NCBI RefSeq assembly: GCF_002795405.1
Contig: NZ_PHGZ01000003.1
Location: 1-64,000 of the forward strand
Direction: 5' to 3'
DNA: 64,000 bases
Source: Caviibacterium pharyngocola
Lineage (GTDB): Bacteria; Pseudomonadota; Gammaproteobacteria; Enterobacterales; Pasteurellaceae
Of this stretch, positions 45,356-45,875 are shown one piece after another. Within the stretch, counting starts at the first letter, position 1; every line of letters begins with the position of its first letter. The notes beneath the pieces were generated by a model that saw nothing but the letters and a program-made list of their open reading frames with translations, was not told the DNA's origin and did no database searches. A program made the position numbers and the translations under genes.

Positions 45356-45805
45356 TCAAGCGGCAAACTTCATTGTTTTCTTCGGTTTAATTTGATGAAT
45401 CGTATTCGTCACTACGCCGATAATCGGTAACTCTGTCCATTGTGCTGTTTTTATCGCTTTCATTTTGGCGTCAAGCGGCAGAAAAATAAATTCGCCGTTA
45501 TCGTGCGCGATAAATTCATACACCATAAATTGATTGTCGGATTCGATCACGACTAAATCACCGACAGACAAACTGTTACTTTTTTCAACAACCAGAATAT
45601 CACCGGTTTCGATACCCCAAGCCAACATATTCGGATTGCTGACTTGAATAAAACAGGTTTGCTGAGGGCGTTTAATACAATAAAGGTTTAAATCCAATTT
45701 TTTATTAAAAGATCGCATAGGGCGATTGGTATCATTATAAAACGGCATAGGACGATAGGAATATAAATTATCGCGTTGCGCCATTGTTTCGGTGACATAA
45801 CTCAT
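45356..45805 (-). CDS. UmuD-like S24-fold protein without catalytic dyad
   Basis: 149 residues from the second of two adjacent ATGs (45805), which is the better spaced from AGAGG; the first is at 45808. The C-terminal half follows the LexA/UmuD fold: SNPNMLAWGIETGDILVVEK, then VGDLVVIESDNQFMVYEF and LPIIGVVTNTIHQIK. UmuD has SGDSM (Ser60) and TVKKL (Lys97); here the equivalent positions are Asn (NPNM) and Tyr (MVYEF), so self-cleavage should be impossible. There is no HTH and no umuC beside it. Two LexA boxes control it. It may act as a dimerising partner or regulator of a Y-family polymerase; that is inference. Confidence 0.8.
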   Translation of the reverse strand: MSYVTETMAQRDNLYSYRPMPFYNDTNRPMRSFNKKLDLNLYCIKRPQQTCFIQVSNPNMLAWGIETGDILVVEKSNSLSVGDLVVIESDNQFMVYEFIAHDNGEFIFLPLDAKMKAIKTAQWTELPIIGVVTNTIHQIKPKKTMKFAA

Positions 45806-45825
45806 CATATACCTCTTAAATTTAC

Positions 45826-45875
45826 CTGTTAATTTATACAGTTTTATAATACTGTTTTTTCATACAGGTCGTCAA
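45826..45875 (-). promoter_or_regulatory. SOS promoter with two LexA boxes
   Basis: Two perfect CTGT-N8-ACAG boxes, at 45826-45841 and 45852-45867. On the minus strand the -35 TTGACG (45870-45875) and -10 TATTAT (45846-45851) are 18 bases apart; one box fills the spacer and the other covers the start region. The next gene is the UmuD-like one, 21 bases away. Confidence 0.85.

Follow-up and report, generated by a model that had tools for sequence, protein, structure and literature searches.

A UmuD-like, probably SOS-controlled gene of the Pasteurellaceae whose product has lost catalytic dyad and cleavage segment

Full-length UmuD of E. coli and its non-cleavable variant S60A bind Pol III alpha, and S60A lowers the alpha-beta signal. 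With purified proteins full-length UmuD breaks the alpha-beta contact, an effect abolished by removing UmuD residues 1-17 and not by removing residues 1-7, and the UmuD variant N41D is monomeric (all PMC5342242). For E. coli in vivo, two further papers describe a UmuD checkpoint in which UmuD2 together with UmuC slows replication (PMC3901139, PMC4045847). Results on the full-length E. coli protein are hard to read because it is converted to UmuD' and is accompanied by UmuC.

Here we describe a UmuD-like gene of Caviibacterium pharyngocola (Pasteurellaceae), found in a window of 64,000 nucleotides, the whole stretch of DNA that was analysed (contig NZ_PHGZ01000003.1, positions 1 to 64,000). An earlier note on this DNA had described the gene as SOS-controlled and its product as UmuD-like with both catalytic residues replaced. 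That observation is confirmed overall, and the interpretation attached to it is supported in part. The gene is also a core gene of the Pasteurellaceae and probably impA of H. influenzae, both of which the earlier note had missed.

Gene, fold and promoter

The gene encodes a 17.3 kDa protein (Table 1) whose sole Pfam match above cut-off is Peptidase_S24 (PF00717; 63.9 bits, cut-off 23.3); no DNA-binding domain, such as the winged helix of LexA, was found in it. Among PDB sequences it comes nearest to UmuD and UmuD' (best E 3.7e-10). Only three NCBIfam models match at E up to 1: UmuD (PRK10276.1, 71.2 bits, below the curated cut-off of 110), HumD (32.1 bits, below the curated cut-off of 120) and LexA (23.3 bits, below the cut-off of 110.95). 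The UmuD model was matched by all 20 members of one alignment (E up to 0.001). An AlphaFold2 model has block means of 79-92 pLDDT over residues 51-140 and an N-terminal arm without structure (pLDDT <50). Model residues 47-141 match residues 47-139 of the UmuD' chain 1ay9 with a Z of 10.3, and the LexA C-terminal domain 6a2t matches the model somewhat better (Z 12.3). Both the resemblance of the S24-fold half to UmuD and the lack of a DNA-binding domain are in line with the earlier note. No membrane-spanning stretch was found (highest 19-residue Kyte-Doolittle mean 1.09), and assignment of the gene to a defence system was rejected, there being no PADLOC match.

Besides this protein, the source genome encodes LexA and two further S24 proteins. 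One free-standing S24 protein of 122 aa (locus L002, 809-1788) keeps GDSM and has a lysine in the right region; it lies directly after a 178-aa frame that is a possible repressor part, and the two are perhaps a split phage repressor.

Table 1. Features of the UmuD-like gene and its upstream region, in positions of the window
Feature	Position	Strand	Remark
UmuD-like CDS	45356..45808	-	150 aa + stop; ATG 45806-45808; second ATG 45803-45805
S24-fold domain	45410..45712	-	Pfam Peptidase_S24 match, residues 33-133
Codon 97, TAT (Tyr)	45518..45520	-	site of UmuD catalytic Lys97
Codon 60, AAT (Asn)	45629..45631	-	site of UmuD catalytic Ser60
N-terminal arm motif, S-Y-x-P-x-P-x-[YF]-x-D	45731..45760	-	codons 17-26
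AAGAGG	45812..45817	-	likely ribosome-binding site, by eye
LexA box 2, CTGTTAATTTATACAG as read on +	45826..45841		just downstream of -10
-10-like hexamer, TATTAT	45846..45851	-	18-nt spacer
LexA box 1, CTGTTTTTTCATACAG as read on +	45852..45867		between -35 and -10
-35-like hexamer, TTGACG	45870..45875	-	

The two perfect LexA boxes reported in the earlier note are both exact. They are the only exact boxes (CTGT-N8-ACAG) in the whole window, where 0.19 would be expected, and two or more such boxes occurred in 2 of 100 shuffled windows. The promoter hexamers of the note are likewise present, but promoter-like hexamers by themselves do not exceed chance here (3 found in the stretch against 3.4 expected).

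The boxes recur across the family. In 92 of 136 copies an exact LexA box lies in the 320 bp that precede the DLN codons, and 30 of those 92 have two or more; the control, 1883 bins from the same loci, gave 6. With at most one mismatch the counts are 135/136 copies and 86/1883 control bins, and a pair of boxes 23-28 bp apart was found in 94/136 copies and in none of the 1883 bins. The sole exception among the 136 is genome G102, in which LexA is present yet no box lies upstream of the UmuD-like gene. LexA was found in 137 of the 140 Pasteurellaceae genomes; the three without a LexA match (G091, G107 and G115) have the UmuD-like gene.

Across the source genome the exact box occurs at 10 places, against 14 for a reversed control pattern; by itself it is weak evidence on this scale, and what counts is its position before SOS genes. 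Eight of the 10 sit 11-76 bp before lexA, recN, dinB (15 bp before the start), mfd, recA, uvrD and, twice, the UmuD-like gene. These genes were named by NCBIfam, the mfd and uvrD frames being cut by locus ends and hence scoring below the cut-offs. As far as the DNA itself can tell, the UmuD-like gene is under a LexA-controlled promoter. Of the two remaining exact boxes, one (L249, ~1501) precedes by 23 bp a 109-aa frame that no NCBIfam model matches, and the other (L252, ~1501) stands 107 bp ahead of a 251-aa frame that weakly matches repeat-type proteins.

Lost catalytic residues and retained features

In an alignment to PDB sequences, SGDSM of UmuD corresponds to SNPNM and TVKKL to MVYEF, with identical residue numbers, which places Asn60 and Tyr97 at the catalytic sites, as the earlier note had said. 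Across 136 intact Pasteurellaceae copies (intact at the conserved DLN motif), residue 60 is Asn in 116, Asp in 12, His in 7 and Ala in 1, and residue 97 is Tyr in 132 and Phe in 4; Ser60 and Lys97 occur in none. Our yardstick of 37 canonical UmuDs, a non-random sample made up of the better matches of the order and class searches plus two Pasteurellaceae UmuDs, has both residues in 36 proteins and neither in one. The tallies of orthologues cover 123 of 125 copies for the alignment and 136 of 138 for motif counts, the broken copies of G008 and G015 being left out.

A cleavage-type site, [CAG]GF, is present in 35 of the 37 canonical UmuDs, and a Cys/Ala-Gly cleavage site is absent from the arm of the UmuD-like protein. 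Searching the 40 residues before DLN returned a [CAG]G[FY] string in 2/136 family copies, one of them falling before the start codon; because both strings lie upstream of the arm motif, they are not cleavage sites. The segment between arm and DLN is shortened in most of 20 family rows aligned with canonical proteins. The dyad and the cleavage segment are both gone, and active site and substrate site have therefore been lost together.

The one canonical-sample protein with neither Ser60 nor Lys97 (L218; G401:C96:40159-46464; family f8) is a UmuD-like protein followed by a UmuC-like frame, and its cleavage site is lost as well. It is possibly an independent, fixed UmuD'-type protein.

Other parts of the protein are closely kept. 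In the arm, Y18 (119/123), P20 and P22 (122/123 each) and D26 (121/123) are nearly invariant; a looser form of the arm motif is found in 135/136 copies and the strict form Y.P.P.[YF].D in 117/136. The motif resembles, without being identical to, the canonical UmuD arm (P-[LF]-F), a segment which we take to be a clamp-binding motif. Asn41, the UmuD dimerisation residue, is present in 136/136 family copies. Trp64 is invariant (123/123), at a position where canonical UmuDs mostly have Ala (28/37). Among 24 hand-picked orthologue pairs, dN/dS was 0.02-0.23 in 22; in the remaining two dS was saturated, with pN/pS of 0.11 and 0.27. The UmuD-like protein is under purifying selection, a working protein with constrained residues.

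These data bear on two readings of the lost dyad. That the protein is still a protease, acting through other residues, is scarcely credible. Six polar residues (D39, N41, T51, D70, E75 and H138) are indeed invariant in 123/123 orthologues, but H138 is also present in 26 of the 37 canonical UmuDs and is therefore not a new catalytic residue, and no cleavage-type site remains in the arm. Another Ser/Lys pair in the active site, the counter-case named in the earlier note, was looked for in the 123 aligned orthologues and not found: there is no conserved Ser or Lys near position 60 or 97 to take over near the cleft. The second reading, a decaying and functionless remnant of a umuDC operon, has practically nothing to recommend it as a probability. 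Canonical umuDC is nearly absent from the Pasteurellaceae (2/140), and one pseudogene copy and one truncated copy exist (G008 and G015), but a remnant is strongly contradicted by the presence of the gene in nearly every genome (138/140), by the low dN/dS in 22 of the 24 pairs and by the invariance of family-specific residues such as Trp64.

Distribution, missing partners, relatives and names

A search of 140 Pasteurellaceae genomes found the UmuD-like gene in 138 of them and in 41 of 43 genera, the sample including Haemophilus, Pasteurella, Aggregatibacter, Avibacterium, Rodentibacter and others. The G008 copy is broken and the G015 copy truncated, and no match was found in G013 and G096, although both have LexA. 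It is mostly a solitary gene: in 6 of 138 loci another gene follows on the same strand within 60 bp, and the two commonest neighbour families are on the opposite strand, downstream in 62 loci and upstream in 61. In G015 a Y-family gene and the UmuD-like gene are both truncated, close together (L083; G015:C36, ~116684-118489). Of the IMS match there, just the end is left, and the N-terminal part of the UmuD-like gene is replaced, as if one rearrangement had broken both genes.

The usual partner of UmuD is largely missing. The earlier note had seen no UmuC next to the gene, and a look at the rest of the source genome found no umuC either, its sole Y-family match being dinB. UmuC is present in 2 of 140 genomes (G069 and G133), as a second Y-family match beside its own canonical umuD, with NCBIfam UmuC scores of 798.5 and 428.6 bits against a cut-off of 431. 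A Y-family polymerase match as such was obtained in 134/140 genomes. NCBIfam identifies the source-genome copy as DinB, along with seven others that were tested. For the other single matches the score was the sole criterion, whole domains reaching at least 163 bits against 122 and 132 for the UmuCs, and the matches in G015 and G085 are partial. Six genomes of four genera, H. influenzae among them, gave no IMS-domain match (G061, G062, G063; G070; G087; G102), and all six keep the UmuD-like gene; G013 and G096 have a Y-family polymerase and lack the UmuD-like gene. Pol II and SulA were each found in 0 of 140 Pasteurellaceae genomes and in the E. coli control of the same search. The Pasteurellaceae SOS regulon is without several classical effectors.

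Outside the family, a search of the order matched 141 of 394 genomes, Pasteurellaceae included, and a search of the class 33 of 369, two of them Pasteurellaceae. Twenty outside loci were taken for reading, one of which (L217) gave no match on re-reading. Of 40 class places listed, 20 were examined; 18 have Ser and Lys, and the other two are Pasteurellaceae. Among the matches listed outside Pasteurellaceae, only two proteins, both of family f10, have a match that extends over part of the arm (query start at residue 20 or before). These f10 proteins (genomes G148 and G172; loci L199 and L200) are like the Pasteurellaceae protein in their arm type (TYRPVAFFND), in Tyr for Lys97, in their exact LexA boxes and in having no adjoining UmuC-like frame (~550 bp downstream examined in L200). 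They differ at residue 60, which is still Ser in L199 and is Gly in L200, an intermediate state. In addition, genome G148 carries a canonical umuD with umuC behind it.

A UmuD tree was built from 118 columns with 41 hand-picked Pasteurellaceae rows, 2 f10 rows and 30 canonical rows (seven canonical rows dropped). It puts the Pasteurellaceae proteins on one side of a branch (100/99) and the canonical UmuDs on another (99/96), with f10 between, in a tree where long branches meet. A duplicate of UmuD that would have lost first Lys and then Ser fits these sequences. An AceE tree (29/30 genomes, quick method) places f10 near, not next to, the Pasteurellaceae, with a support of 82 for another branching order; f10 as the sister of the Pasteurellaceae is not supported, and transfer is therefore possible. 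The f10 relatives may reflect either common descent with loss elsewhere or such a transfer. Spread by phages or plasmids was rejected: the 8 phage records matched and the plasmid matches listed (from a search covering up to 5000 records) are all below 60% identity and include no close copy, and the annotated ones among those listed are named UmuD or similar.

The gene has probably been met before under another name. In H. influenzae the orthologue is flanked by the genes of an SstT-like transporter and a DAHP synthase, presumably HI1545 and HI1547, and would therefore be HI1546. HI1546 exists as a locus (PMC2627913), and impA figures in a list of H. influenzae SOS-response genes that cites Sweetman 2005 (PMC6957337); impA of H. 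influenzae is probably this UmuD-like gene. The ImpA of P. multocida (PM0892) is given as 17.1 kDa (PMC3390355), which fits the UmuD-like protein. Papers on the Pasteurellaceae use the name impA for quite different things: besides the SOS gene, for a repressor, a type VI protein and two membrane proteins, one of the outer membrane and the other an inner membrane autoaggregation protein. Some of these labels may be the UmuD-like gene under wrong names. Mintz and Fives-Taylor, in 2000, are said to have described A. actinomycetemcomitans impA as the gene of an inner-membrane protein. With the name so muddled, the gene is easily overlooked. Among the open PMC papers searched, no description of the loss of catalysis or of family-wide conservation was found.

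Possible functions and comparison with known systems

We tentatively favor, at a little under even chances, a reading that leans on sequence and on analogy with E. coli: the protein would be a permanently full-length UmuD2-like dimer that is made under SOS, binds the replicase or the clamp and, with no UmuC involved, slows replication. DNA damage would inactivate LexA, and the UmuD-like protein, a dimer always in the full-length UmuD2-like state, would accumulate. Helped by its arms, the dimer would bind Pol III alpha and/or the beta clamp, as full-length E. coli UmuD does. The replicase would then be loosened and replication slowed, or a wasteful polymerase exchange blocked, until repair is complete. 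Such a brake would require neither UmuC nor self-cleavage, and it would be switched off by the return of LexA and by dilution or degradation of the protein, with no conversion to UmuD'. In favor of this reading are the loss of dyad and cleavage site, the kept arm motif, the LexA boxes, purifying selection, the rarity or absence of UmuC, Pol II and SulA, and the behavior of E. coli UmuD and S60A; the invariant Asn41 indirectly supports a dimer. Among the options that the earlier note had listed (a dominant dimerisation partner, a fixed UmuD or UmuD'-like cofactor for a polymerase, or a LexA modulator), a UmuD fixed in its full-length form agrees best with an arm that is conserved and a cleavage segment that is gone; a modulator of LexA or RecA is a less likely alternative.

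Several points count against this reading. The E. coli checkpoint in vivo is described as joint with UmuC. Two genomes are without the gene although LexA is present, and a third has the gene broken. The arm motif is not identical to the canonical UmuD arm, and the arm, the part that would dock, is modelled with pLDDT <50. Finally, G091, G107 and G115 have the gene and no LexA match, and G102 has LexA and no box.

The main rival, which we think unlikely, is that the protein serves as an uncuttable binder of RecA filaments that would compete with LexA or limit recombination, giving negative feedback on SOS. UmuD and LexA have both been solved on RecA filaments, and our model matches those entries (8gmt, 8gms). 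In E. coli, UmuD products inhibit RecA-mediated recombination (PMC5342242, PMC3901139). No polymerase would be needed for such a role, in agreement with the six genomes that have no Y-family match, but binding to RecA alone leaves unexplained why the N-terminal arm is conserved and just the cleavage segment lost. The same six genomes tell against a fixed UmuD that would act as a cofactor of Pol IV (DinB), suppressing its -1 frameshifts and regulating its access, which we consider quite unlikely as the function. UmuD2 modulates DinB in E. coli (PMC3901139), a Y-family match is present in 134/140 genomes, dinB of the source genome has its own exact LexA box, and in genus g5 a DinB match lies ~0.8-2.4 kb from the UmuD-like gene in 8 of 9 genomes. 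Six genomes of four genera nevertheless keep the gene without an IMS-domain match, and G013 and G096 have an IMS-domain match without the gene; a role with DinB is possible but cannot be the whole story. For these reasons the polymerase cofactor suggested in the earlier note is weakened, for UmuC as for DinB. Very unlikely, in our judgment, is a dominant partner that would pair in mixed dimers with LexA, with prophage repressors or with mobile UmuD, changing their cleavage. In its favor, the protein retains the S24 fold and the dimer residue, and the source genome also encodes LexA and two further S24 proteins. Against this, the LexA model scores only 23.3 bits (cut-off 110.95), and prophage repressors would not be expected in every genome, whereas the gene is nearly always present.

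Taking the permanently full-length UmuD2-like dimer further, the Pasteurellaceae might have rebuilt the SOS checkpoint around a natural non-cleavable UmuD-type protein, a dedicated SOS effector that slows the replicase directly. We regard this wider claim as doubtful. If it is true, the primary, UmuC-independent function of UmuD would be to brake replication at the clamp, and self-cleavage and Pol V would be separable additions. The Pasteurellaceae, which include major human and animal pathogens, make a UmuD function without UmuC and without cleavage directly testable. The UmuD-like protein may also explain DNA-damage tolerance in a family without several usual SOS effectors.

In comparison with known systems, the protein has in common with E. 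coli UmuD the S24 fold, Asn41, LexA boxes before the gene and a P-[LF]-[YF]-type segment in the N-terminal arm. E. coli UmuD has Ser60/Lys97, a Cys-Gly/Ala-Gly cleavage segment and a umuC partner, normally the next gene, whereas the Pasteurellaceae protein has neither dyad nor segment, its gene is without umuC, and it adds the arm motif Y-x-P and an invariant Trp64. Lacking dyad, cleavage site and UmuC partner, it is not UmuD in the strict sense, and as far as we can infer it would work like full-length UmuD. HumD, of the phage P1 type, is likewise a UmuD-like, single-domain protein; it is a pre-cleaved UmuD' and differs from the Pasteurellaceae protein, which has an arm. LexA differs in its N-terminal winged-helix DNA-binding domain, and in the source genome it is another gene. 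The UmuD mutant S60A is a permanently full-length UmuD, as the Pasteurellaceae protein would likewise be; it differs in being engineered, in having Ser alone changed and in a natural setting that includes UmuC.
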